Shown here piece by piece: positions 2,678 to 64,000 of a stretch of DNA of 64,000 bases. A model generated the notes under the pieces. The model saw only the letters and a program-made list of their open reading frames with translations. It made no database searches and was not told where the DNA came from. This stretch comes from Crambe crambe (lineage: Eukaryota > Porifera > Demospongiae > Poecilosclerida > Crambeidae). The stretch spans positions 3,906,001 through 3,970,000 of the forward strand of contig OZ004587.1 in NCBI GenBank assembly GCA_963924555.1, read 5' to 3'. The position numbers and the translations under genes are program-made. The stretch's first letter is position 1, and the number at the start of each line of letters is the position of its first letter.

Positions 2678-3398
2678 TCAGCAGCAGTTGAAATACTAAT
2701 AGGATTGTTTACCTACTTATCAACCTACATACAATTATAAACCACAAGTACACTTACCTTAACCACTTTCAGCTGCACAGTGAATGCAGCTGGACTTTGC
2801 ACGCGCTAAGTACACTGCTGCCGATCGTGCACAAGTCCATACTTGGATGATTGTAAGCTAAGGATGTCTGAATAGTGTTGGAGAAAGTAAAGCTTTAGAT
2901 CTGTGTCGGAAAATATTATACCACGCTAGTTAGTACATCCTTTCAAAACAGGTATGTTGCGTGTTTGGTGCCCGTGCAAGTGGATTTTGGCAGTTGTAAG
3001 CGATTAAGTGCGTTAATAGTGTACTAGGAAGGTTGTGTGTCCTCGCTAACAAATTTCAAGTCCAAGAATGCACAGGTAACGGAATAAGAAAACGTTTTCT
3101 AGAGGTGCTGTTTTGATTCACCGTGCACCTACGGCAAGAATTGACATTTCCGGTAAAATTAAATTTCAATGGGGCTCAATTGACTTCCGGTTTGGTTGCG
3201 TAACGACTGGCTATGCCACCTCTCTGATAGGTACTTTATATGCAGCGACAATATATCCTGGCGGCGACGAAATATCCTAGGAGATTATGTCGCTCGCGAC
3301 AGAATTTCCTAGGATATTTTCTCGCGACAGAATTTCCTAGGATATTTTGTCGCCGCGACAGAATCTCCCAGCGACAAAATAAACTGTGACACCGGACC

Positions 3399-3486
3399 GG
3401 GCGAATTTTTTTTTTGGACGCGGTTTTGACTTAGAAAATTTCTCAGAGATACATTCACCTTTGACCTCCAGCACTGGCACGCGCAG
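3399..3486 (+). repeat. Left TIR of the 7.4-kb Mutator-like element
   Basis: Pairs in inverted orientation with 10683-10769. It opens GGGCGAA, a T run, GGACGCGG, then a TTTTGACTTAGAAAATTT block. Only a few mismatches separate the arms. Confidence 0.85.
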
Positions 3487-3624
3487 CACGCGGGGATGGC
3501 TCCACCCTCCAGGGCACATTAATTTTTGTAACCTATTCTATATCTGTAGTCTATGGTGGAAAGTCTGATGTGAATCATAATGAAAGGTAAATCATAATAG
3601 CTAGCTATAGTTACTGTGTTCTGG

Positions 3625-6600
3625 CTACCATTTTCCAGCATTTTGTTTGTTTGCAATAATGTTTAGTGATAAACTGTGGGGTCGTTTCTTCTCTACTTGG
3701 TTTTTTCTTCTTATAGGTAGTATGTACCTTTGGTTCTTTTGGTTGGTGATAGGCACATAGCTTCTCATTCTAGGCCTTCCTGCTTGAACAGGTCCTTTCC
3801 CTTTGGATCCATACTTTCGTCTGCCACTTGCAGTTGCCTGCACACCAATCCTTTTCCCCCATCTTCTATTACCTGTGGTAAGAGTTGTTGCTCTTCTTGA
3901 TTCAGATCCAAAACTGTGAAGTGCTGATGCCAAATGGGCATTTGATTGAAGTGATGAAAGTTTCTGAAATCGTCCAACAAACTTCTCAATACCAGGTATT
4001 AGTTGTGGATCATTAAAATCTGTGTTCAATTTCTGTTTTAATGTTGCAGCAATGTTGTCTATTTTTCGAACTAAGTCTGCTTTTTTTTCTTCATTATTGA
4101 TCTCTACTCCTTTTTCTGTGTCATCAAGTGCCCCTGCCCTGATAATATCCCAACAACTACCTGTAAAATCTCCTCCTGAATCCTTAATAGTTTTGGTGGT
4201 GTTGCTGGTTATTTCCCTTGTTTCATGGAGGGAACAGTAAAATTCAGGGTCTTTCCTCACACTTTCTCCCATTGCCAAATAAGCAATTTCTTGCCTCTGT
4301 GCAGGGTGTATGGTAGGAATGAAGTTTAGTGATTGAGTATGACAATGATATACAATTGCGGCCTGATGGCTGCATGGGGATCCATTTTTTCCTTTCTCAC
4401 ATGAACATGTCCCTATTTCCATATCAACGATGTACTTAATAGTTGAATCCCTAGTGCTTTTAACATGATAAATTTTTTTTTCTGCACTGACTATTGATAT
4501 TGATGATTTATCCACCATTTCTGCAAGCAAGCCTTTAAATTTTCTTGATATGTAATAGTCAAACCTGTTATGGGCAATATTGAGGAGCTTCCTTTTCATA
4601 TAGTTCTCCAGAGCATCTGTTACAAACTGAAACATTTGGACTAAATTATATGCTTTTATACGCCCAAAAATCAGGTCTTTGATTATTCTTATTCCTGCCT
4701 CTGCTATATTATTAGTATTATTTCCTCTAGTTGGTATACTATTTCTGTAACATATAGCCCACTCTTGGCGCTTATGCCATAGGTCTGCCATATGGTTTTT
4801 AAAGTTTTGTGGCACTGTGTTGTCTTCACTGAATCTTGAGTATATTTCAGCTAGTTCTTTTTCGGTCTTGCTATAAACCATCTCTTTTACCTTGCCAATT
4901 AATTTAGCACGGTCTTCATGTTTGATTTTGTTCTTGCTATCAAACAACCAGGTCCACCGGCGCTGTAAAAAGTGAAAAGTACACAACAATAGCTTTGCTT
5001 TAGGCCATACTTCAGAAAGCGCCTCCCTTTCTGTACCAGAGTCATCTGTCATAATTAGTCTTGGTCCATCTTTGTTACCATAGAAAGATGCCTTAGGTAC
5101 CACTTGTAACAATTGTTGAAATGCTGCTTTTATTGTGAGCTGTTTTTCATCAGAAGTAATTGTAACCCCTAATGGCAACCCTCCAGCTGAACTACTAGTA
5201 GAAATGATGAATAAAGAACAATTGTATTTTTCTAAACAGCTGGTAGAGTCGCAAAATATCATTTCTCCTGATTGCTGGATGTTCTCATGCACCCTTGCCA
5301 TTAATGGGGTACAGGCTGTGATTATAAGGGGCTGAGAATGTCTCTTTTTGACCAGTTTTTTCTGTTTAGTCTTTGGTGGTTTGATGAAATCACTATCACT
5401 CTCTGTTTCTTCATCACTGCCAACATCATACACTTGTACATAAGCCTTTCCGCCACTGTTAGCATTGGCTTGATTGTACATTTTGATTTCCTCAGTGAGA
5501 GAATCTGCTAGATCTTTCCCGTTATGTTTTGTACCATACTCGGTTATCCTCCACTTATCATACATTCTGCTAACATCTTGCAGCAGAGGGTTGATTGCCC
5601 TGTCTGAAAGCACTTCTTGTAAACCTGCTTCATCATGTATGTCCATCAACATAGTTTCATAGTAATGTCTTGCACTGGCTGCACTATGGCCAGATTGAAA
5701 GAGTTTATAGTACTTGCTTTTGGTCTCACTGCTAATTGGTCTAAAACTCAGCACATGTGCAGACTCAATGGGGTGATTGTGTGTGAAAGCTAGTTGTACT
5801 AAAGTTTTGTGAGAAAGAAAAATATGATTTTGCTTGCAATATTGTTCCTTTTTGGTTGGCTCAACAATTTTTAATGTAAATTTGGAAGAGCACTTTGTTT
5901 TCTTGTCCCTCAACTGATGCATTAGAGGATTAGGTTTCCTCTTACAAGCTGCTTTCAAGCCTTTTTGCCTCTTAGATAAGGTTTTTTGTTGATGCTGGCA
6001 GTGCATGTCTACTTTGTACAATACTCTCTTTTGGCCAACTTTATAAGTTCGTGTGACCCTATAAGTACACTTGCTGGATTGAAACATTTGCTCCAACCAT
6101 TTCTTAGCCTGGTTCTCCTTTGTAATATTGATTCTGAATGTAACCCTGAAATTGTTGTCGCCATTTAATTCTGAGTAGGTTTCTATCACATAGCTATACT
6201 CACTGTTATCAGGTAAAACTTTCTGCAACGATAATGGAAGATCTTTCCATTTAAGTACCACATATTTAGAAGTTGATTCAGTTGGTGAATTGGATTTGGA
6301 GACACAGTTTGGATCCAAGTCAGCTGTAGAATTTAAAAGTTGAATGCATGAGTTAGACCCAAGCTGCATGCCAGCATTAGGAGAAGTGGTGGGAGTGAGA
6401 GGCCCAGCGGCGGCAGTGGTGTGAGCGAGAGGCCCAGTGGCAGCAGTGGTGTAAGCGAGAGGTCCACTGGTGGGAGTGAGAGGCCCAGTGGCGGAAGTGG
6501 TGTGAGCGAGAGGTCCACTGGTGGGAGTGAGAGGCCCAGTGGCGGCACTGGTGTGAGCGAGAGGCCCACTGGTGGGAGTGAGAGGCCCAGTGGTGGCACT

Positions 6601-7203
6601 GGTGGGAGCGAGAGGCCCACTGGCATCAGTGATGGGAGTGAGAGGCCCAGTGGCAGCAGTGATGGGAGCGTGAGGTCCAGTGGCAGCAGTGGTGGAAGCG
6701 AGAGGCCCAGTGGCGGCACTGGTGGGAATGAGAGGCCCAGTGGTGGAAGTGAGAGGCCCAGTGGCAGCACTGGTGGGAGTTAGAGGCCCAGTGGCAGCAG
6801 TGGTGGGAATGAGAGGCCCAGTGGTGGCACTGGTGGGAGTGAGAGGCCCAGTGGCGGGAGCGAGAGGCCCAGTGGCAGCAGTGGTGGGAGTAAGAGTAAG
6901 AGGCCCACTGGCGGCAATGGTGGGAGCAAGAGGTCCAGTGGCGGCAGTGATGGGAGCAAGAGACCCAGTGACATGAGTGAGAGACCCTAAGAGAGGGCCA
7001 GTACTGGGAGTGAGAGACCCAGTAGGAGAGGTGGTGACAGGAGTTGAAGTCAGTGTGTCAGAGGATGAGGTCATTAAATTATTTTCATCCAATACATGCT
7101 TACTAAATTCCGATTCCTGTATCAATGGTCGGTGAAGAAGACCAGCACAAGTGGGTTCTAGGAGATTGCAGTGACCAATCGTACTGTAGCGGCTAAGGAT
7201 CAT
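3625..7203 (-). CDS. MULE-type transposase with SWIM zinc finger
   Basis: A single 1192-residue open frame. Residues about 50-270 are low-complexity Thr/Pro/Gly/Ala repeats (see 6385-7015). Residues about 400-500 carry a Cys/His cluster ending 'THNHPI', resembling the WRKY-GCM1/FAR1 DNA-binding finger of Mutator transposases. A DDE core follows: 'FCDST' near 651, 'MTDDS' near 718 with the MULE 'CTFHFLQ' motif just after, and a glutamate in 'NIAEAG' near 834. A SWIM finger (CxC, eight residues, CxH) sits near 934, followed by a basic tail. The expected catalytic and zinc residues are all present and there is no frameshift, so the protein may be active. It should cut and join the element's TIRs in the nucleus. 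The start at 7203 is the first ATG; an upstream spliced start is not excluded. The stop of the USP-ULP1 gene lies 68 bp upstream. Confidence 0.88.
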   Translation of the reverse strand: MILSRYSTIGHCNLLEPTCAGLLHRPLIQESEFSKHVLDENNLMTSSSDTLTSTPVTTSPTGSLTPSTGPLLGSLTHVTGSLAPITAATGPLAPTIAASGPLTLTPTTAATGPLAPATGPLTPTSATTGPLIPTTAATGPLTPTSAATGPLTSTTGPLIPTSAATGPLASTTAATGPHAPITAATGPLTPITDASGPLAPTSATTGPLTPTSGPLAHTSAATGPLTPTSGPLAHTTSATGPLTPTSGPLAYTTAATGPLAHTTAAAGPLTPTTSPNAGMQLGSNSCIQLLNSTADLDPNCVSKSNSPTESTSKYVVLKWKDLPLSLQKVLPDNSEYSYVIETYSELNGDNNFRVTFRINITKENQAKKWLEQMFQSSKCTYRVTRTYKVGQKRVLYKVDMHCQHQQKTLSKRQKGLKAACKRKPNPLMHQLRDKKTKCSSKFTLKIVEPTKKEQYCKQNHIFLSHKTLVQLAFTHNHPIESAHVLSFRPISSETKSKYYKLFQSGHSAASARHYYETMLMDIHDEAGLQEVLSDRAINPLLQDVSRMYDKWRITEYGTKHNGKDLADSLTEEIKMYNQANANSGGKAYVQVYDVGSDEETESDSDFIKPPKTKQKKLVKKRHSQPLIITACTPLMARVHENIQQSGEMIFCDSTSCLEKYNCSLFIISTSSSAGGLPLGVTITSDEKQLTIKAAFQQLLQVVPKASFYGNKDGPRLIMTDDSGTEREALSEVWPKAKLLLCTFHFLQRRWTWLFDSKNKIKHEDRAKLIGKVKEMVYSKTEKELAEIYSRFSEDNTVPQNFKNHMADLWHKRQEWAICYRNSIPTRGNNTNNIAEAGIRIIKDLIFGRIKAYNLVQMFQFVTDALENYMKRKLLNIAHNRFDYYISRKFKGLLAEMVDKSSISIVSAEKKIYHVKSTRDSTIKYIVDMEIGTCSCEKGKNGSPCSHQAAIVYHCHTQSLNFIPTIHPAQRQEIAYLAMGESVRKDPEFYCSLHETREITSNTTKTIKDSGGDFTGSCWDIIRAGALDDTEKGVEINNEEKKADLVRKIDNIAATLKQKLNTDFNDPQLIPGIEKFVGRFQKLSSLQSNAHLASALHSFGSESRRATTLTTGNRRWGKRIGVQATASGRRKYGSKGKGPVQAGRPRMRSYVPITNQKNQRYILPIRRKNQVEKKRPHSLSLNIIANKQNAGKW
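6385..7015 (-). repeat. Coding minisatellite, Thr/Pro/Gly-rich repeat in the transposase
   Basis: Degenerate tandem units in multiples of three bases (roughly 15-33 bp) carry GAGAGGCCCAGTGGC on the plus strand. They encode variants of 'AATGPLTPTS' in the transposase N-terminal part. Length variation would keep the frame. The repeats probably form a flexible linker ahead of the DNA-binding finger. Confidence 0.85.
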
Positions 7204-7271
7204 CCATCGTTCTTGTTTTGTTCTAAATTAGTATGTACATAACTATGGAATTATGAGAATTGTTTGCATGC

Positions 7272-10200
7272 TTACAGTAGACTTCCACTTAGCAGCTCTT
7301 CTAGCATGATCTTCCGTATAATTCCCATGTGATCCTACAAAATTATGAAATTGTATCATGTGACGACAATCTTACTGTATCCATGATCATTGGGGTCTAT
7401 AGACCCGAAGTCTCTCTTTAGGATGTATCTCTGCTCACGTACTTGATTAAAATTGATTGTCAGATCCAAACAAAGATGGTAAATGAACTATATAAAGTTG
7501 TCCAACAAGAGATCAGTTTTAGAATCTTGTCAATACGGAATTTATACCTGACTGACAAAAACTCCACAATCAGTTCCATTCTCTTGCCTTGGTAAATCCT
7601 GTATGGGCGCAATCATAATACCAAGCTTTGCATGTCATTGATATGACTAAAGACATACAATCCTGTGGACATATTTCCATTTCTTCCAGTCTTGGTCTCC
7701 ACAAACAAATTTCAAGTAAGATCTGCTGATCAAACCTTTTCATGAATTTTACTAACTATTATTATAGTAATTACTTGATATGTGACCAGTAGGATGGATG
7801 GTCAGTGTGCAGTGAATCATAGTATTCAGCTCTTCTGGCTTTCATGTGAACAGCCTTAAAAAAAGAAAAATTAGGCTAAGGCCACATCCCTCTCCTAATT
7901 TTTGCTCTTCTGGACTTTTAATTTTTGCTCTTCTGAACTGAGCATGCGCATGGTGTGCTCTATTTGAAAATTAGGTGTGATTTTCAGTGTGATATTAATT
8001 TTAGCGGCTATTAAATTATGGTGTTTGCTATTCTTCGAATAAGGTGTGGAGCTACTATTTTTTAACTTCAGCTTTTTGGTTTTTATGACTTTTTAAGTTA
8101 AACTTCAGCTTTTTACTTGTTTTGCTTTTTTCATGGTATAAGATTGTGTATAAATAGTTGCCATGGAAACCAATAAAAAATAAAAGCCTCTTTTTTTTTG
8201 GATGATAAATAAGTAATTTGATGTGGCCTAATTGGTGATAAAGGGCCTCATATATTTTTGGATGATAAACAAGTAATTAATAATTATTTGATGTGGCCTA
8301 ATTGGTGATAAAGGCAGGCCATATATATTTTTGGATGATAAACAAGTAATTATGTGGCCTAATTGGTGATAAAGGGCCTCATATATTTTTTGATGATAAA
8401 CAAGTAATTAATAATTATTTGATGTGGCCTAATTGGTGATAAAGGCAGGCCTCATATATTTTTAGACAACCAATCCACCACCTACTAGCTAATAGCATAC
8501 CAGCAAAGTCCAGTGACATCCACCATCATTTATGGGGAAAAGGAGGAGATCTTGTTTTTCTAGCTCGACCTTCAGATTTTTTTATTGTATAATTACATGT
8601 ACATACCATGCTTTTATTCTGTATACCTTTGTATGCCATTTTGCCACACCTTTGACACCCTTCTGCAGAAATGCTGGAAGGAAGTGGGAACTAAATGCCA
8701 CTATGGATTTTCCTTCCTGGTAAAAATTTCTGTCATTGATTTTGTTAGTGTGAACTATTATTCCATACCTTGGAAGCTTCTGCTATCACTAGTCTGGCAT
8801 ACTTATATATGATCTGAATGGAAAATGGCAGCATCATATTAACTACTGAAATAATGAATAAAGGAAACCTAAAACTCTTGTCATCCCAACATTAACTTTG
8901 GTGTATAAGTGACATCTGAATGAATGACATGTCTTACTGTTTAATAGCTACATACCTCATCTGTCAACCAATTATTTTGGCCTGCTATTGAATAGCACAT
9001 GTTCAACGACAGAGGTGCTGAAGTTGTAGACACTTTGTGCATAGAAAATTTGTTAAGTGTCAGTCTTTTGTTTAGTGGTTCTTACAGTTTGAAGCCTCAT
9101 AAAATATCATGTATGGATCTTGCTGTAATACAGTCGCCACACTGACTGGAATCACCTGGATGAGATATATAAATATGTACACAATATCCCAACAATAGAT
9201 TCACCCGTATACCTTTGTATCATCTGCATATGCCCAATATGCAGCATTTTTTGGTGATTTTAAAAATGCTGTATAATGTCCACAATCTCTGTAGAGCTGT
9301 GCATGGTTTATCACACTGCTTAGTGTGTACATCAACCGCTTGCCATCAACTTCACAAGAAATACTTGAATTCTTTTGGTGGACATGTACGTAGTGCATGT
9401 GCTTTTTATGACAACAATATATATGTACTTATTATAACTAACCTGAATCTGTACTCTGCTTCCCACACTGCCATAACCATGTAAATATAATTAAAATAGA
9501 AATTGATTAGCCTTACCCAGTCCCATGTTTCCATACACACAAACATAGAAGCTCAGGTATCTTTTTCAGACACCTACTTTTACACTTGGTAGTGTCCTTA
9601 TTGCATCTGTAATAAATGTACATGTGTACTAGTAATGTGAAAACTAGCATCAGAGGAGGTTAGATCAAATTTGATGGTCACAATAACTAATTACGATACT
9701 TTAGCCACCAAGGTCATGCACACATGCACCAAATTTGCATGACATGCGGCTTACTCCAACCTCCTCTGAGATGTGCCTATACCTTGTACAATGACTGGTT
9801 ACTTCCTCATTTCTAAAATAAGAGTCCAACAGATCCTGGTATGTTAAAGCACCAGTTCCCTACATCATTTTCTATCAATGCTTCCATGGAATGTGAAATT
9901 TTCTCATACCACTGTTTTAGTGTATAGTACCCTCTCCTTGCTGATGTGGGTGGATGATGTTAGACCACAATCCATACAAGTCACTAAAATGAGTATTCTG
10001 TGCATGATGGTGTTATAGCTAAGTTTAGGGAGGACGCACCAGTTTCAGCATATTCCATACTAAGCTGGTTAGAGAGAGCATTCCCAACACTAGATGATAT
10101 CACTTATTGTTAAAGGATTTGGTAATGAGCTGAGAATCTTACCCTTCAGGTAACTTTTGAAGCAATTTGTCCACAAGTTGCACATAAAACTCGTTAGCAT

Positions 10201-10648
10201 CTTCCTGACAGCCATACTGCATGTTTGGAGAGAAATCTAAAAAAGGTAAACTCTTTGTTAATTATCGTGTTTCTATAATTCTATTGTTATCCTTTAGATT
10301 GTCCAACAGTGGTGAGACGTCAAGAATACTATGCTGGTTGCTGTATTTGTATGCTTTAAATAGAGAACTGATCTCATGAACAAGACCTGGCAACCCTGTA
10401 TATCTTTTTTTAATGTGCATAGTATGAATTTTTTAAAGGCGCATACCTTCATTGTTATAACTGTCAACTTGGTCTACCAAGGTTCTGTAGACTGGGATAT
10501 TCAACATGCACTGTACAGTACTATTGGCATAGCAATAATTTCTCCTGTTTACAAAACCTGGTGGTAGTAGGTGCCAGTCAATTTTAAATTGCTTTGCTGA
10601 GGATCTCTTCTGAGGCTTGGTTAAGCTTAGTGAAAGAGATTTAGCCAT
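7272..10648 (-). CDS. USP-ULP1 fusion protease (C19 + C48), spliced transposon cargo
   Basis: Hand-built 19-exon model: 10648-10447, 10395-10291, 10236-10143, 9997-9931, 9911-9864, 9835-9783, 9606-9517, 9467-9443, 9401-9213, 9155-9086, 9017-8956, 8813-8769, 8716-8627, 8569-8501, 7854-7775, 7722-7659, 7598-7548, 7487-7443, 7334-7272. It totals 1512 nt (503 residues). Phases fit throughout, and every junction is GT-AG except the donor after exon 2, which is GA where a decayed copy has GTAAGG. USP half: Cys box 'GFVNRRNYCYANS' (Cys39), 'QEDANEF', zinc-ribbon CxxC pairs, His box 'DCGHYTAF' (His about 270) with 'ADD', and C-terminal 'PYMIFYEA'. ULP1 half: 'NNWLTDE', 'FPINDGGCHW' (His about 400), 'YYDSL', 'LPRQENGTDCGVFV' (Gln about 456, Cys about 462) and a 'HMGIIRKIMLEEL' end. 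Expected to cleave ubiquitin and SUMO-like conjugates. His replaces the usual ULP1 Asp (about 406). The join between halves (9086 to 9017) is phase-correct; two separate genes remain the alternative. Confidence 0.75.
8201..8463. repeat. Four-unit tandem repeat inside a fusion-gene intron
   Basis: Four direct copies of 57-73 bp share GATGATAAACAAGTAATT and TGTGGCCTAATTGGTGATAA. Units with and without an ATAATTATTTG insert alternate. The array lies in the long intron between fusion-gene exons 8569-8501 and 7854-7775. Confidence 0.8.
9651..9769. mobile_element. Short MITE, CAGAGGAGG termini
   Basis: A 119-bp element with imperfect inverted ends CAGAGGAGGTTAGA and its complement. It lies in the fusion-gene intron between 9783 and 9606, so it does not disturb coding. 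No clear target duplication. Confidence 0.55.
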
Positions 10649-10682
10649 GGCTTGAGCTTTCCCGCCCTAGACATATGGCTCT

Positions 10683-10769
10683 AGCGCGTGCTAATGCTGG
10701 AGGTCAAAGGTGGATGTATCTCTGAGAAATTTTCTAAGTCAAAACCGCGTCCAAAAAAAAAATTCGCCC
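10683..10769 (-). repeat. Right TIR of the 7.4-kb Mutator-like element
   Basis: Inverse partner of 3399-3486. It abuts GGACC at 10770-10774, after which the next element's TIR begins at once. Confidence 0.85.
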
Positions 10770-12379
10770 GGACCGGGCTAATTTTTTTTTGGACGTACTT
10801 CTGACTTAGAATTTTTTTCAAGTCCTGGTTTAACCTTTCACCCCAACACGGCCACACCCATATGTAGCCCGGGGGGCACGTGACTACCCATATGCCAGTA
10901 GCCAGTTAACTTGTGGCAGCACTCACTTTCTGTTTGCTAGTTGAACTTCCTTGAGTAAGTAACTTATGGTTGTAACAGGGAATGGATGGGGACTCATACT
11001 GGCAGTGGTAGCTATCTGTGTCAGTGAGCTGTAACACCTTCAGATTCCTTACTTTATTTTCACGGCATGTGAGTTGACAAATTGTAGAAGAAAGAACAAT
11101 ATCAAGAAGAGTTAAGTCGATTTATCTCCCGTATTGAGAATCTTAAGTGTCTACTGTCTACATACTGCTGGTATAGACTTTCCTATAATCATTCAACGCA
11201 TGCATGTAGGTAAACGTAATACGTATGTTAGTCTTCAAGTTTTGTGTACAGCACCATCTCATTTATAGTTGTATATACCATGTGGCTGCATGTCAGTTTG
11301 CTATTATTACCCACCACAAAATTAAGGGGGGGGGGGGTTCCCTGGCTCCAAAACTTGCCACTTTACAAATGTATTAGCGTAACTCTGCCCACTTTTTACT
11401 TCCTGTCTTAGCCCTTCCCTTCCTCCATACCAATGTCCATATAACCCAGATAAAAAAATTCATTGCTTAGTTTCATCCTATAGCTAAGTCGATGCCAAAT
11501 TAGAAGCCTTTATCACATAATTAACTATTTTTAATTAATATTTTTTTTAACGACCACTTGTGAAGGTACTATGAGAGTAGCTGTATACCCTAAAGGGTTA
11601 AAAATTTGCTTCTTGGGACAATGATAACTTAATTTAAAAATTTTTAAAAATTATACTTAAGATATCATTTGAATCTTCTTTAGAAGCTCTATAAAATGTG
11701 GCTATATATAGGCACTGTAATCCACGTTAAATGACCTAAAGTACTGAAAGGTACTTTGAAACATTAGTGAATCACTTGAAAGATGATTTAAAACTTTTGT
11801 GTGTGTTGCTATGGAAAAAGGAAAGCCACATTTTGTAGTCCTACATAATTAGCACTGTGTAAAGTGATGAAATTTTACCACAATTTTTTCCTGAGTTATT
11901 ACTGTCCCTAACAGTGGTCTTCATTTTTGCTTGAACACAATATTTTGGGGCTTCAATTCTTAAGCCACACCCACTTTTTGGTTCGTAAGTACTCCAACTA
12001 TCATTGAAATAGCATACTTAATTTCATGCGAATACACATTACGGTAAATGAGTAATCCAACATTTTTTAGTGCAGAATTTTTAGCAAGGGAACCTCCCTT
12101 AATGATAACCTACAAGTCTCTGTGTATACCACTGAGAATTCGTCCAAATATTCAGTTTGCTGTCTACAAATATCAGTGGGTGTAGTAATAATGGAGTTAA
12201 AAAGTACTGTGCTGGCCTTCATTTTTCAAAGTGTTTGGCTAGGAGCACTAGTATATGGCCATCAGGTGGCTGTGAATCGCTGCATTGTGTAATTCAACTT
12301 GGATATGTGAATGCTGAAACAATCAGCATTGTGCCAACCACTTTGAGAAAATTCTGGCTGTTCAGCAAATTATAAATCT

Positions 12380-13125
12380 GCTCTATTTTTTCACATACTG
12401 GTCTGGCGTAGTCCAATGTAAAATTCGTTAATATCCTCTTGCATCCCATAAACCATACTTGGAGTTATGCCTGTAGGCTATGGGTAAAGTCAATTTTTTA
12501 TCCATAGTTGTCCTTACCACCCAGATTACTGAGAAGAGGTTCCAGATCAAGGGAGACTGAATGCTTGAACGAGTAACAATAACTTTTCTTTAGCTCACTG
12601 ATTTCTTTTATGAGCCTAATTTTTATCAGAAAAAAAATTGTTTATTTTTTTGTGCATACAATTAAAATATTTATTTACCTTCAACTCCATCACAAATACC
12701 CAGGCATCTACACAACAGCTGAAGAGTTGATGGTTCATGCAATGGACAACACTATTAGCATAGCAGCAATTCTTCTTGCTGACAAACTCAGGTCAGGGTT
12801 TATTTCAAGGGGGGCTTCTGCTCCCCCCCCTAGGAATTAGCTAGCTTTCGTAATGGGATTATCATAGAATTCCACATACATGTACTGGTTTGTAGTTGCC
12901 TCTCCTTAATTTTTTAAACTAGGCATTTGACCCCCCTTAATTAAAATTCTGAATTAAACCCTGCAGGTAGTTTGGATCGCCAGTCAATGGCATAAATACT
13001 AGGAGCGTTTTGAGAGTCTGGAATATGGGTAGTCTTTTTTTCTTTTTTTTTTAGGGACAGAGATGCACACCTGCTACCTTTAGCCTGATCCCTTGCTTCG
13101 CTTTCCCGCGAAAAATTACCCGCGT
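12380..13125 (-). pseudogene. Decayed USP copy, interrupted by a MITE
   Basis: Minus-strand pieces match the USP half of the 7272-10648 gene. The first exon ends '...AIDWRSKLP' near 12969 and continues after the MITE as 'EFVSKKNCCYANS'. A second piece, '...LEPLLSN', ends at an intact GTAAGG donor near 12521. A third holds 'YGMQEDINEFYIGL'. Stops and frame changes follow the third piece, and the ULP1 half was not found. Removing the MITE and one CAGGT restores the Cys-box frame, so the insertion came after a functional or near-functional stage. Confidence 0.7.
12794..12963. mobile_element. MITE with CAGGGTTTA termini inside the USP Cys-box exon
   Basis: The 170-bp element begins CAGGGTTTATTTCAAGGGGGG and ends with a near inverse. 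CAGGT is directly repeated at 12789-12793 and 12964-12968. Five-base duplications with CAGG ends suggest a hAT5-like or related non-autonomous element; the family is inferred. Confidence 0.75.
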
Positions 13126-13598
13126 GCAAGTATAAGCATGCGCATGAGCTAAATGGGTGTGTCAGTGTGGGGGTTAAAGGTTAAACCAGGACTTGAAAAA
13201 AAAATTCTAAGTCAGAAGTATGTCCAAAAAAAAAATAAAAAATTAGCCCGTTTTTTTTTTGGACGTACTTCTGATCTGACTTAGAATTTTTTTCAAGTCC
13301 TGGTTTAACCTTTCGCCCCCACATGGACACACCCGGTACCCATTTAGCTCATGCGCATGCTTATACTTGCAGGCGGGTAATTTTTCGCGGGAAAGCAGGT
13401 GTGCCTAAAAAGAAGAAAAAAGACTACCCATATTCCAGACTCTCAAAACACTCCTAGTATTTATGCCATTGACTGGCGATCCAAACCACCTGCAGGGTTT
13501 AATTCAGAATTTTAATTAAGGGGGGTCAAATGCCTAGTTTAAAAAATTAAGGAGAGGCAACTACAAACCAGTACATGTATGTGGAATTCTATGATAAT
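12858..13598. repeat. Long palindrome (inverted duplication), arms about 350-380 bp
   Basis: 13251-13598 is the reverse complement of about 12858-13240 with few differences. The arms meet near 13249. Both contain the same element terminus, the USP exon piece and part of the MITE at the same position, so the inversion happened after the MITE inserted. Such a structure would form a large cruciform and be hard to clone. Confidence 0.85.
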
Positions 13599-16590: not shown

Positions 16591-17206
16591 TAAATAGCTA
16601 ATTTTCAGTTCCATTCACACTAATTATGACTTGTGTATCCTGCATGTTCAATGTATCCTTTAAATCTTCTTTTGTTATAATATTAAATGCCATTGATATT
16701 AGTAATTGAGGGGATGCGGTTAATCATACATAACATCACTAGCCTTAAAAATCCTTTTCCCCTCCTCCCATTCCCAAAGCCTCTCCTTTACCATGAATCC
16801 ACAATTTCTCAGGATTATGATGTGTCCACAAGTGATTTAATAGCCTACATTATGTGATAGTACTTGTCTTATCTGCAAAACATTAAAAGCTGCTAAACGC
16901 TTGTAAAGTTTACAAGCTACATAATTATAATGTACAAGAGATGTAAAATTCAATTAGACAGGAACAAAGTGGTGTATACATTTGATGAAAAGCCATGTAA
17001 ATCTCCAGATTAAGAGCTTTAGAATGATACCAATAACTCCTTCGCTCCATAAGACCCCTTTTCTCAAGTACTATCACATATGACTATTATCCATTTTAAC
17101 GGAATCATTATGCTTTGGCACCTAAGATCTAGCTTATATGATTGATAGTTTAGGTGACCCTTTACCAATGTTTTCCTGAGATCCAATAGCATATTTTATG
17201 ATGCAG
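16591..17206. other. Intergenic or intronic, nothing recognised
   Basis: AT-rich, no open frame of note. It ends at the acceptor (TTTTATGATGCAG) that precedes the LRR exon. No NACHT motif was seen between 13.8 and 17.2 kb. Confidence 0.4.
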
Positions 17207-19350
17207 GTAGGGTATCAGATGAATGCACATTAGGATCAGAGGGGATAGCTGTACTTAGAGAGAAAGCTAGGGACAAACTGTCACAAGTGACTACTCTCTG
17301 TTTTCATGGTCATAATTATGCTGCAGAACAATTACAAGCAGTTAGTGTATTGATGCATATCTTGCCTTCTTTGGAAATCCTAGACCTTTCTGATACACAG
17401 CTTGGAGAAGATGCAGTGAGAACTTTAACTAGTGATCTAAACCATTCCAATCTTCAAATACTCAAAATTGACACTGCGGACAAAAATCCACTCTATTCTT
17501 CAATCAAACTCCTACAATACTTAGTGAAGTCTTTCACATCAAAGTGTAGCCATTTTGTTAATATTTGGTTTCCTGATTATTCTAAGAAGCATTTATTATC
17601 TTCCCTTTCTCTACCATTTTATTTCTGCTCTAATGTCTACTTGCCTGATATAAATATGAGCTTTTGTCACCTTCAACCAATAGAAATCAGTATAATTTCA
17701 TATAATTTCAAAGTGAGATTCATCTGTAGTAGACTTAGTTTTATCAACTGTTGCATTACTGATGAAGGAGCTAAGACTCTCTCTGATGCTATAAGGTGTA
17801 GCAATATTAAAATACTTGAACTAAGTATGAATTCTATAGGTGATGAAGGAGCACTAGCTCTTTCTAAAAGTGCTTAATTCTTGAAACAGTAGATTTGAGC
17901 TGCAATCAAATTGGTGATAGTGGAGCACTAGCCATAGCCAGAGCTATACCACTAAAGATATGTGGTCTTTTTTTGTGGAGCAATAGCATCTCTAAGCATG
18001 GAGCTGAAACCTTGTTACGAATTAAGCAGGACATTGATCTAAACTCATTTTATATTGATAGTAGGAATATACGAGATAGTGAAGCAGCTGCTATTTCTTT
18101 AGGTTTAAAAAGCAAAATGTAAGAAAGGATTCTTCTAATGTTCTGAAGCACAACTTTGGATGTCTACATGCTCTGAAAATATGTAGCAATTCGATAGGCA
18201 ATGATGGCGCAAAAGCACTTGCCACTGCATTGAAAATATGTACAGGTTTAATTTCACTTAATCTATCCAACAATACAATTGGCCAGGATGGTGCTAAAGC
18301 ACTTGTTAATGCTCTGAGTGCATGCACAAACTTAACTTCACTTAATTTTTCTAGCAATTCAATTTGTGATTCTGGTGCTAAAGCTTTTGCAGATGGTTTG
18401 AAAAAGTTAACTTTACATGAATTTGACATTTCTTATAACTCCATTGGTGATTATGGTATTGAAGCACTTGCTGATAGTCTCAAAGCACACACAAGTTGGA
18501 CTTCATTTAATTTATCTAGCAATTCAATTGGTGATGATGGGGCTAAAGCCTTAGCTAATGCTTTTAAAAAATTCATTAATTTAGTTTCACTAAACTTATC
18601 CAGCAATTTAATTGGTACTAAAGGTGCTGAAGCACTTGCTACTGCTCTTTCAACAATATTACATGAAAAAAAAAGCTCTGATTTCCATACACTCAGTCTT
18701 GGACACAATTCTATAGGCCAAAGGGGTGCTAAATTTCTTGCTGATGCTCTTAAGAACTGTACATCATTGTGCACAATTGACATTTGTAATAATAATAATA
18801 GTGAAGGTGCAATGGCCCTTGCTTGTGTGTTGAAGAATTCTAGAAATTTGCACACTCTTGATATTGCTCAAAATAGGTTGGATAAAGATGGAATTATGGC
18901 TTTGGCTGATGCTATTAAGAATTGCAACAAGCTGTACAAGCTCAACATAGGTAATAATAACATTGATGATTGTGGAATACAGGCTATTGCTAATGCTCTC
19001 AAGGAATGCAGTGATCTGCATGTGCTTGACGTTAGCCACAACAAAATGAGTAGAAGCGGTGCAAAGTCTCTTGCTGGTAGTATTAAGTTCTGGGTCAAAC
19101 TTCAAGTGCTTGATGTATCCTATAATAATATTGGTAAGGATGGCATGAAGGCTCTTACTGGTGCTATTAAGTGTTGCAGCACTCTTAATATTGCTTTCTG
19201 AGATGAGGTCCCATCATCAACTTGAGACCAATGGGACAAGGTCCCAACATCAACTCGGGACCGATGGGACCAGGTCCTATACGTATCACTGGAAATATAA
19301 AAGCTCTTGCAAATGCAATTAAAGGCTGCAATGAATTGCATGTAATAACT
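17207..19350 (+). pseudogene. LRR (ribonuclease-inhibitor type) gene, NLR-like, frame-broken
   Basis: After an acceptor at 17205-17206 the frame reads 'LREKARDKLSQVTTLCFHGH' and then LRRs of 27-28 residues with consensus L..L.LS.N.IGD.GA.ALA.AL. The NLRC3/NOD-type ribonuclease-inhibitor LRR has this form. The first frame ends at 17877. A second runs 17878-18122. A third starts near 18125 and runs to 19201, with eleven consecutive repeats. One more half repeat ('NIKALANAIKGCNELH') lies at 19288-19350 beyond a short insertion. GTAAGA at 18120 could be a donor, so one break might be an intron; the break at 17874 looks like a true frameshift. In sponges such LRR tails usually follow NACHT domains; none is visible upstream. 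Probably a decaying NLR-family sensor or an orphan LRR exon. Confidence 0.72.
19202..19285. repeat. Two-unit 37-bp repeat interrupting the LRR frame
   Basis: Two imperfect copies of GGTCCCA...CATCAACT...GACC.ATGGGAC lie exactly where LRR coding stops. LRR coding resumes in the next bases (19288). It therefore looks like a small insertion or expansion that truncated the frame. Confidence 0.6.
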
Positions 19351-46828: not shown

Positions 46829-47201
46829 CAAGTAAGTGCAAAAAATTTCTTCTAAATAAAAAGTGAAGTAGGTATAGCCATAAAATTTAGCTGCATTCCT
46901 ATCACTCCTACCCCTCCTAATTTCAATATCCATGCCCATAGAGGCCTAGGAGTGAAGTAGTAGTAGTTTTGTAATAATATGATTGCTGTGATTCTTGAGT
47001 TTGGTGATGGGTATGGGTAAGGGATTACTTGACTCACTTATTGCTGAAGGGGGAGTGAAGAGTAGGGATTTACGTAAGTTGGGTATATATATGGGCATGG
47101 ATATTGAAATTAGGAGGGGTAGGAGTGATAGGAATGCAGCTAAATTTTATGGCTATCCCTACTTCACTTTTTATTTAGAAGAAATTTTTTGCACTTACTT
47201 G
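46829..47201. repeat. Hairpin element P4
   Basis: Outer arms CAAGTAAGTGCAAAAAATTTC/GAAATTTTTTGCACTTACTTG match P1-P3, but the inner arms (TAGCTGCATTCCTATCACTC and inverse) and a central GAGTTTGGTGATGGGTATGG block are different. The central block resembles the hairpin at 27.4 kb. Confidence 0.8.
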
Positions 47202-48360
47202 TTTCCATTCTTTTTCTTTGTAATTAGCTATTATAAATTGATAATATTTAAAAATTTAATTTTCTGAAATGTTCTTAATTTGGTAAGTACATAGCACTGG
47301 ATATAGAAGATTATTAACAATATTTGTGTATTATTCATATTCATAAGAAGTAGTTATTCCTTCATACCCTGCACCTATGGTTTGCAAATAGCTAATTATA
47401 TGCATTCCCTTGCTAAGAAAAGCTGAATGATTAATTTTGAATGTTATATTCCTCAGGGATGATTGACTGATGAGGAGGTTTCAGAACGAGAAGGTGCAGT
47501 AGTGAAGAACCTGGAAGAAATGAATGGCTGGACACTTAGCTAATTAGCTATTGGTGTTTTTTTTTTTGGTTTTTTTTTTTTTTTTTTTTCAATTAATATG
47601 TGGGGGCATGTGCAATAAGGAGTGGTTGGGCAGTTTTTTTTATTGAGAGTACCCTCTCATGCATGTGTGCTGAGGGTTTATTGTTTGCAAGCATAGGAGT
47701 GAAGAATGTTTTGTTATCTTGAGGGAGGAGAGTATGACTGACATGAAGGAGGAGTATCTGTAGTGAATACAGTACTGAGGAGTGAAAACATTAGAGTGGA
47801 GGAGCAGAAGGAAATGAATCAATAATAGTTGTTGAGGTTTTGTTGTCTTGCATATGAGGGAGGAGGGTATGAGGGATGAGCATGTGGAGTGCAAATGAGT
47901 GTTGAGGTTTGGTTGTCTTGCACGAGGAAGGATATGGGGAATGAGCAAATGAGAGTAGCAATTTGTGATGCGCATGCACATTTGATGTAGCAGAATTTTG
48001 TGCAGAAGCTTAGTATAGAGATCTGCTGTTTGTGTACGTGATGATCGCGAGATATATATCTATAAAGCAATAGGGTTAAATGAAGCCAAGCTATAGCAGC
48101 TTTATGCTTGCCTTGAGTTAGAGAATTTCTTCAAGTATTTAGATACAAATGAAATGTTTTATAGTGTTTGAGTGCGTGACTTACTTTTTATTTTTGATGA
48201 TAGTGGAAATGCACTGGAAAAGACAAGTAGCTATATATAGCTAAGTGATTTTGTAATGTTTTATATTACTTACAGTTTCCTCGATACATATTAGGGTCTG
48301 GAATTAAAGATTATGGTGATACATGTTATATAATGTGTTGGTGGAAAATGGTTAAGTATG
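47202..48360. other. Spacer with T-run and GA-rich repeats
   Basis: 47350-47420 resembles 54955-55015. A T-run lies at 47558-47590. 47820-47935 has a TTGAGGTTTKGTTGTCTTGCA block repeated about every 80-90 bp. No supported gene. Confidence 0.45.
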
Positions 48361-48419
48361 TACTCACATGGAAACAGGCAGAATCGAACACCCCTCCCTC
48401 TGCGCCTGGCCCTGGCCCT

Positions 48420-49075
48420 AGCCCTCCACCCTGGGTGAGGGTGTGCAGTTGGAAGTGGCACTGGATGAAGTAATTGTAAGATGCTATCTATAGTTAGTTG
48501 CTTACCTTCTGGGAGGGGGTGCGCAGCTGGAGGTGGCACTGGATGATGTAATCGTAAGATCATGAAATGTTTTATTCATAGTTGCTTACCTTCTGGGAGG
48601 CCGAGGGGGCGTGCAGTAGGTGGTACTGGATGACGTAATTGTAAGAGTAATGAAATGTGTTATCTATAGTTGCTTACCTTCTGGGAGGGTGTGCGCAGCT
48701 GGAGGTGGCACTGGATATAAGAGTAATGAAATATATTATCTATGTATAATTCTTTACCTTCTGGGAGGGGGCGCACAGCTGGAGGTGGCACTGGATGATG
48801 TAATTGTATGAGTAATGAAATTGTTATCTTTAGTTACTTACCTTCTGGGAGGGGGTGTGCAATGGGAGGTGGGGCGCGCAGCTGGAGGTGGCACTGGATG
48901 ATGTAATTGTATGAGTAATGAAATAGTTACTTACCTTCTGGGAGGGGGTGTGCAAAGGGAGGTGGCACTGGATGATGTAATTGTAAGATCGTGATATGTG
49001 TTATGTATAGCTAGTTAGTTGCTTACCTTTTGGGAGGGGGTGTGCAGCTGGAGGTGGCACTGGTTGAGATCAGTG
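48420..49075 (-). repeat. Tandem array of a repeated mini-exon-like unit
   Basis: Seven or eight units of about 80-115 bp. On the minus strand each has a pyrimidine-poor ATCATCCAG acceptor-like end, a segment of about 33 nt encoding 'CHLQLRTPSQK' or a variant, and a consensus GTAAGC/GTAAGT donor. Units differ by small in-frame and out-of-frame changes. The rightmost unit continues into a longer open frame (49015-49209, minus). Whether these are used exons is unknown; the conserved splice signals and the length divisible by three are the evidence. Confidence 0.5.
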
Positions 49076-62827: not shown

Positions 62828-63089
62828 TTATCACTGCATTAAGCACACAGCTATAAATTGCATTGTTAAATTAATTATCCTGTACAACAATAACAAAAAA
62901 ATAACGACAGCAACAAGAAGTAAATTTTTTAAAGGTGTTATCATGTAATGAGATGGTGAAGGAGGATTGAAGAAAAACTGGCAACCCAAGTGACCCCTTT
63001 TTTATCTCGGTATACTATGAATTAGCTATGTAATACTATAATGGCCAACGTTGTTCTAGTATATGAAGATATACTAGGATATACAAGTT

Positions 63090-63660
63090 ATTGGTCTCTA
63101 GGGTTTACTGGCAGGTAAGAGTGTGTGTGCGTGCGTACATCAGTCAACAAAAAATGTTCAGTGATTGGACCATCCTCAGTAATTATCATTGGCTTTATGT
63201 ATAATTGGAGACTTACCATCCTGGGTCCTGTATGGAAAGTGTTTACTCTTGTTTTGATGGGTGTGGATATGCTAGCATCTTCAGTGGCTTCTCTCTTGAG
63301 GGAACAGGAAATCAAATAAAAGAAAATTTCGTACTTAAAGATAGTCCTAACCATTACGTATGTACGTAGCTGCTATTAGGAATTTGACTGGACAATAGCA
63401 CAATGGCAAAAAATTGACTGAATAATGTCAGAATTGATGTAAATCGGCCAGAAAATGTCTTAGCTGTGATGGGCTGTTTCCAGAGATAAATACAGTATAG
63501 TGTTTCTTTTGTGGTCTTACTAGCACGCTAATCTTATTTATAATAAGGACTCCAGAAATCTTTATTAAGCACTCCAGAGGTGTAGGGAAACCTACCAATT
63601 TGTTATTGGTATGGGTGTTATAGGAATTGTATGTTTTCCACATAGCTAGAAGGGTTATGC
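63090..63660. repeat. Start of a third GPCR duplication unit (C)
   Basis: Closely similar to 42165-42680, then joins a TTGTTATTGGTATGGGTG block also seen at 55840. Suggests the tandem array continues beyond the window. Confidence 0.6.
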
Positions 63661-63684
63661 TGCCACAAATAAAGGGTGTCATGA

Positions 63685-63950
<266 letters not shown>

Positions 63951-64000
63951 GGATCATAAGAGAAGTAAAAGGAGAAAGAACATAAGGTATAAGTTTGGTA

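Follow-up and report, generated by a model that had tools for sequence, protein, structure and literature searches.

A Mutator-like transposon of the sponge Crambe crambe that likely encodes a USP-ULP1-transposase polyprotein

We analyzed a 64,000-nucleotide stretch of the Crambe crambe genome (contig OZ004587.1, positions 3,906,001 to 3,970,000; here, the window) and found in it a complete Mutator-like element of 7,367 bp at window positions 3401-10767, identified by its terminal inverted repeats (TIRs), its target site duplication (TSD), and a transposase with MULE and SWIM domains. Upstream of the transposase and on the same strand, a USP domain is followed in one frame by a ULP1/SENP domain. 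On the sequence evidence, we consider it rather probable that the USP, ULP1/SENP, and MULE transposase parts form a single minus-strand gene of this transposon and that the proteases act in cis. An initial annotation had proposed that a Mutator-like transposon encodes a fused USP-ULP1 protease. Its coordinates, 10648-7272 on the minus strand, are correct, and both domains fit one phase-consistent model; the setting is supported by the TIRs, the 9-bp TSD, and the co-occurrence of fusion and transposase in other copies and other families. The notion of a protease encoded on its own next to an independent transposase was not sustained, the evidence favoring one polyprotein. The features, in window positions, are as follows.

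3392-3400, no strand: left TSD CCGGACCGG, direct repeat with 10768-10776
3401-3484, no strand: left TIR, 84 bp, 96% identity to the right end over positions 1-84
3625-7222, minus strand: proposed exon 18, MULE transposase with SWIM finger, through the stop codon (open reading frame with MULE and SWIM matches)
6385-7036, minus strand: repetitive P/T/S-rich linker from ULP1 to the transposase core (self-overlapping blastn matches and translation)
7275-7223, minus strand: proposed phase-2 intron, 53 nt, between ULP1 and transposase (donor and in-frame acceptor)
7274-7272, minus strand: apparent TAA stop of the protease frame, within a GTAAG donor
8813-8769, 8716-8627, 8569-8501, 7854-7775, 7722-7659, 7598-7548, 7334-7276, minus strand: remaining ULP1/SENP exons, the last one trimmed to the donor
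9017-8956, minus strand: bridging exon from USP to ULP1, holding the ULP1 motif WLTDE, after a 68-nt phase-1 intron (9085-9018)
10648-10447, 10395-10291, 10236-10143, 10089-10040, 9983-9910, 9859-9783, 9606-9517, 9363-9213, 9155-9086, minus strand: USP exons (gene model and Pfam)
10684-10767, no strand: right TIR, 84 bp, pairing as an inverted repeat with the left end
10768-10776, no strand: right TSD CCGGACCGG, direct repeat with 3392-3400

MULEs are characterized by long TIRs, a TSD of 8 to 11 bp (typically 9 bp), and a MULE transposase domain with DDE residues. In the window, the inverted arms 3392-3484 and 10684-10776 include the TSD, and 84-bp TIRs of 96% identity remain after its subtraction, which are long in the MULE sense. 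The TSD is 9 bp, as in MULEs, both in the window (CCGGACCGG) and in a diverged relative described below, the C16 copy (CCTAGGGAG); because the TIR and the right flank each start with GC, the direct repeat can also be read as 11 bp. The open reading frame at 3625-7227 (minus strand) matches the Pfam families MULE (PF10551; 38.3 bits, cut-off 27.6) and SWIM (21.2 bits), and we placed by pattern in the C16 copy what we take to be the D, D, and E motifs of the transposase. Two repeat tracts lie within the element, one in intron 13 (8186-8466) and one in coding sequence (6385-7036), and both give self-overlapping matches between copies.

The protease gene has 17 exons, running from 10648 to 7272 on the minus strand with phases that close, and encodes 478 residues. 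The initial annotation had described complete USP and ULP1/SENP layouts, and Pfam bears this out for the 478-residue model: UCH scores 93.6 bits (cut-off 23.9) at residues 31-300 and Peptidase_C48 scores 73.7 bits (cut-off 20.7) at residues 320-456. The USP motifs (Cys, Gln/Asp, His, and Asp) are in place, with the UCH score at 122.3 bits in the C16 copy; the ULP1 His, Asp, Gln, and Cys are in place in the window, the C16 copy (C48, 59.5 bits), and a further relative, L056. In a structure-profile comparison, the best match of the ULP1 half was SENP1 (105 bits), and the USP half matched the solved structures of USP2, yeast Ubp8, and others; SENP1, the other SENP/ULP1 proteins, and the USPs of known structure are host enzymes, joined neither to each other nor to a transposase. 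The predicted product would thus combine a USP-type deubiquitinase with a ULP1/SENP-type SUMO protease, and we would expect cleavage of ubiquitin and SUMO.

The earlier count of 19 exons and 503 residues was not upheld, since relatives support 17 exons and 478 residues: we prefer 17 because the C16 family shows the same 17-exon layout with canonical sites, including a Cys-box exon followed directly by the last ULP1 exon. A candidate exon at approximately 7430-7376 was rejected; the phase at its end misfits the last exon, and it has no counterpart in C16. The single irregular donor noted previously is that of exon 2, where the window has AT after 10291 and the copies L039, L040, L041, and L042 have GT (L040 and L041 are identical copies, and L044 is unalignable there). 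Judged from this alignment, the irregular donor is a lesion of the window copy rather than a flaw of the model, and because four other aligned copies carry GT, the window copy is probably defective.

We searched the genome (143 Mb in 119 contigs) with the left TIR, which gave 36 matches, and took 15 regions. Matches to USP, ULP1, and transposase were found together in 5 of these 15 (L039, L040, L041, L042, and L044), so it is not the case that copies of this TIR family consistently lack the protease domains. L043 contains the start of USP only, and nine regions (L045-L053) gave no match to USP, ULP1, or transposase. L042 has TG in place of AG ahead of exon 3. The clearest contrast between exons and introns was seen for the window versus L044 (differences at 20 of 992 exon sites and 45 of 1,112 intron sites); for the window versus L039 it was small (13 of 1,437 versus 14 of 1,278). 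Within the window family, pN/pS ranged from 0.20 to 1.34 (pairs without the misaligned end of L042), numbers too few to use.

The insertion sites of this family suggest a strict, GC-rich target. The flanking 9-mers of the window, L040, L042, L043, and L044 (CCGGACCGG, CCGGAGCGG, CCGGCGCGG, CCGGCCCGG, and CCGGGGCGG) fit the pattern CCGGNNCGG, with one flank seen for each of CCGGCGCGG and CCGGCCCGG. The pattern occurs just twice in the 64-kb window, both times as the TSD itself. L039 is flanked by CCGCACCGG and CCGGTCCGG, which agree at only 7 of 9 positions. L040 and L041 (C12:3307106-3322510) are identical 7,698-bp copies in head-to-tail arrangement; only one CCGGAGCGG separates them, and each outer end also bears CCGGAGCGG. 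This may reflect a recent duplication or an assembly effect.

The order USP-ULP1-transposase recurs in three further families of the same genome, with protease identities of 35 to 53%. Genome searches yielded 53 matches for the transposase, 81 for the USP half, and 57 for the ULP1 half, with diverged matches to the different parts adjacent to one another at several loci, and eight stretches were taken. USP exons followed by ULP1 exons were present in six of them (L054-L058 and L061), where the fusion model scored 552 to 1205, compared to 134 to 219 on the opposite strand and 180 to 258 for three shuffled proteins each. An adjoining transposase match was found in five of the six (C16, C9, C12, C5, and C8), and none is listed for L058 (C3). 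L059 has ULP1 without USP, and L060 has little beyond the last ULP1 stretch (E of 0.56). USP and transposase matches also occur on C10, C15, and elsewhere. The C16 copy, L054, has 17 exons with GT-AG at all borders and encodes 496 residues that are 35% identical to the window protein, with UCH at 122.3 bits and C48 at 59.5 bits; it is bounded by TIRs of its own and a 9-bp TSD without mismatches. Exon lengths equal those of the window in 10 of 17 cases and intron phases in 14 of 16, a likeness toward which the model leans because it was guided by the window protein, although the canonical sites at all borders were not forced. The C9 relative, L055, is missing 10 bases in exon 6. In a further family, C14, the ULP1 half scored 267 against a control of 133 and the USP half 166 against 151, and we dropped USP there; in C14, ULP1 is joined to the transposase and USP is undetectable, an apparent loss.

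The connection of the proteases to the transposase (joint 2) and the resulting polyprotein go beyond the original observation. In the window, L054, L055, L056, L057, and L061, the ULP1 frame ends in LL-TAA within a GTAAG donor of phase 2, and L039 and L040 read the same arrangement of GTAAG over the stop; the apparent stop thus lies within a donor in all four families examined. An acceptor 53 to 65 nt downstream brings the transposase into frame in the window, L054, L056, L057, and L061 (introns of 53, 54, 55, 65, and 65 nt, respectively), with a stop codon met after the acceptor in L056. Because the TAA is internal to this donor and the reading frame runs on into the transposase, the protease frame probably does not end at 7272. 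Splicing from 7276 to 7222 would join the window frames into 1,676 residues; the joined frames of L039 (1,804 residues) and C16 (1,423 residues) are uninterrupted, and the P/T/S-rich linker varies in length among copies (1,676 versus 1,804 residues in total). The first 44 codons past this joint differ between L054 and L057 at 10, 9, and 22 first, second, and third codon positions, with 29 residues identical, and they contain no Met in L057 and L061. In C14, the last ULP1 exon continues into the transposase with no intron. A transposase query of the protein database returned 61 relatives, 14 of which have the ULP1 C-terminal motif within their first 70 residues, compared to a mean of 0.03 (maximum 1) in shuffles and 0 of 665 stretches elsewhere; the motif was drawn up after viewing the N-termini, making this control partly post hoc. 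One relative, P0025, has C48 above the cut-off and MULE within a single open reading frame. We consider it likely that the product is one USP-ULP1-transposase polyprotein.

The connection of USP to ULP1 (joint 1) consists of a phase-1 intron of 52 to 68 nt followed by an open bridging exon in the window, L054, L055, L057, and L061, and is decayed in L056. As proposed earlier, the exon at 9017-8956 is in phase on both sides; it has counterparts in the four relatives, and splicing across 9086/9017 is predicted. Taken alone, the bridging exon has no clear codon-position bias (8, 7, and 9 differences in 18 codons, L054 versus L061). The open stretch before WLTD[EQ] contains no Met in L056, L057, and L061 and one in the window and L054, where ULP1 may have a separate start.

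We compared substitutions in protein-guided codon alignments. Between L054 and L061, dN/dS was approximately 0.16 for USP, and ULP1 had pN of 0.19 and pS of 0.76, with synonymous sites saturated; between L054 and L057, dN/dS was 0.16 for USP and 0.06 for ULP1. The decayed pair L057 and L061 gave 0.52 and 1.21, respectively, and L039 versus L056 gave pN of 0.34 (USP) and 0.23 (ULP1) with pS of 0.80 and 0.85. By these figures, both protease domains are under purifying selection between families C and D. Catalytic motifs are retained in the window, C16, and L056, and the decayed L061 is without the ULP1 His and Asp.

When we searched the protein database with the fusion, and again with an alignment of four rows, the same five proteins were returned, carrying only C48 of the two domains; no fused relative was found among the proteins that such a search reaches, namely those sharing short exact words with the query. 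No significant USP match was found in the open reading frames of the 61 transposase relatives (best E of 0.41), where a USP in upstream exons would be invisible. Our own ULP1 profile scored 15.9 to 25.2 bits in P0047, P0052, P0053, P0054, and P0058, 8.5 bits in P0025, and 8.3 bits in P0045. Pfam C48 gave no match at E ≤10 in P0043, P0044, P0052, P0054, and P0058 and none at 0.01 in P0045, P0047, and P0053, and we therefore count P0025 alone as a single-frame ULP1-transposase. A tree of 59 transposases (53 of the 61 relatives, chosen as those of at least 720 residues with P0006 left out, plus six from this genome) did not group the USP-bearing families A, B, and C/D as one clade, the row for B being decayed; a single USP-bearing clade was rejected, since the branches starred in the tree require three changes. 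As the shared gene layout probably did not evolve on three separate occasions, we tentatively favor an old fusion followed by losses or accompanied by unseen USP exons elsewhere. Alternatively, the families may have exchanged protease modules.

Ubiquitin and SUMO proteases are known from several transposon superfamilies, and their role is not settled. Ulp1 has been documented in Mutator and Ginger1 elements and OTU in Ginger1 elements and Helitrons (PMC2836005, PMC13317346, PMC9741609, PMC2528002, PMC10027918). Animal Mutator elements coding for an Ulp1 domain (hydra and lancelet, cited in Bao et al. 2010) belong to the same class, and the passages on them mention no USP (PMC2836005). Plant KI-MULE/Kaonashi elements are likewise MULEs with a ULP1-type protease, but they are described as non-TIR, their ULP1 and transposase genes pointing in opposite directions, with no mention of USP in those descriptions (PMC2528002, PMC13317346); the window element has TIRs and carries ULP1 on the transposase strand. 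Ginger1 transposases are fused to Ulp1 or OTU, but they are of the Gypsy-integrase type with a C-terminal protease, one class per element in the published table (PMC2836005), whereas the matches of the window element are to MULE and SWIM, with no integrase family among them, and its proteases are N-terminal. Two different cysteine-protease domains per transposon protein are found in VTD/OTU Helitrons (121 VTD Helitrons also bear OTU), which differ in their rolling-circle Rep/helicase and in that both domains are deubiquitinase classes, with no ULP1 in the account given (PMC9741609). A Trichomonas protein combines a USP-class domain (peptidase C19) with transposase_11, another superfamily, and its description mentions no ULP1 (PMC2836005). 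In the open-access literature searched, we recognized neither a USP added to a ULP1-bearing MULE nor a USP-ULP1 fusion in any transposon. ULP1-bearing MULEs are known already; the added USP, and with it the fusion, is provisionally new.

If the USP, ULP1, and transposase parts belong to one protein joined through small introns, the transposase would carry both peptidases in cis to the transposon ends and the target chromatin. The fusion suggests such action, with deubiquitinase and SUMO protease delivered by the transposase both to its own chain and to the chromatin at its ends. The tethered peptidases could strip ubiquitin and SUMO from the transposase and its neighbors, which might lengthen transposase life and might blunt ubiquitin- or SUMO-dependent silencing or repair decisions; self-stabilization and control of silencing or repair may each apply, both being compatible with the present evidence. 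The initial annotation had suggested that the proteases protect the transposase from turnover or counter silencing; like that suggestion, the role in cis-protection is an inference. Since elements of this genome that are only distantly related have the layout in common, the combination was probably kept for its benefit to the element. As a plausible but tentative extension, the one-chain unit of both proteases and transposase would be older than the split of the families (transposases approximately 38% identical), and retention of the intron with the stop-bearing donor might serve as a switch that determines whether the double protease is made on its own or as part of the transposase.

Other explanations account for parts of these data. 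The same three-part protein might act mainly on host proteins, such as silencing complexes or factors that repair DNA where the element excises and inserts, in keeping with the repair role proposed for the Ulp1 and OTU domains of transposons (Bao et al. 2010, PMC2836005) and with the link between plant ULP1-bearing Vandal elements and hypomethylation of related elements (PMC13317346); an enzyme tethered in this way would have the transposase and host targets alike within its range, and we regard a mainly host-directed role as somewhat unlikely. We consider it unlikely that the element makes two proteins, with a USP-ULP1 double protease ending at TAA 7274-7272 and serving in trans as an accessory to a transposase with its own start. 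The in-frame stop after ULP1 in every family examined would fit two proteins, as would the Met soon past the acceptor in the window and C16 transposase frames, but the stop always lies inside the phase-2 GTAAG with a frame-restoring acceptor close by, the segment past the joint is conserved and lacks Met in L057 and L061, and the ULP1 end lies inside the transposase frame in C14 and the 14 database relatives.

The proteases could also be captured host exons without function, comparable to the transduplicated gene fragments that plant MULEs carry. MULEs are well known to capture genes (PMC13317346), and L042, L044, L056, L057, L058, and L061 are decayed. Passengers are already disfavored by the recurrence of the fusion in four families, the open frames of L039 and C16, the conservation of catalytic motifs, and the low dN/dS between families C and D, and we judge them very improbable. 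Slightly less probable still is that USP and ULP1 are two separate adjacent genes: the stop in the intron after USP in the window and the Met ahead of WLTDE in the window and L054 would agree with this, but the halves lie just 52 to 68 nt apart, separated by a phase-1 intron with conserved signals, and L056, L057, and L061 have no such Met. The preferred reading of a single polyprotein, with both protease classes in one frame with the transposase and under selection, makes it testable which modifier such an element needs to strip, whether ubiquitin, SUMO, or the two together, and what the substrates are. Because the proteases are spread over many small exons ahead of a single large transposase exon, annotation based on open reading frames can miss such proteins.

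The surroundings of the element in the window include other features. A fold-back element formed by nested inverted arms (661-751/3235-3325 and 615-693/3321-3399) ends beside the left TSD. A second USP fragment, at 12789-12409 on the minus strand, adjoins the element, with a Cys box (NCCYANS), a QED box, and three significant profile matches; it borders long inverted repeats at 12858-13598 and, judged by eye, resembles family B (L056). Open reading frames at 17158-19201 on the plus strand look leucine-rich-repeat-like, again judged by eye from the translation. GC skew is strong (0.36-0.48) at 47001-49000 and 63001-64000, perhaps marking repeats.
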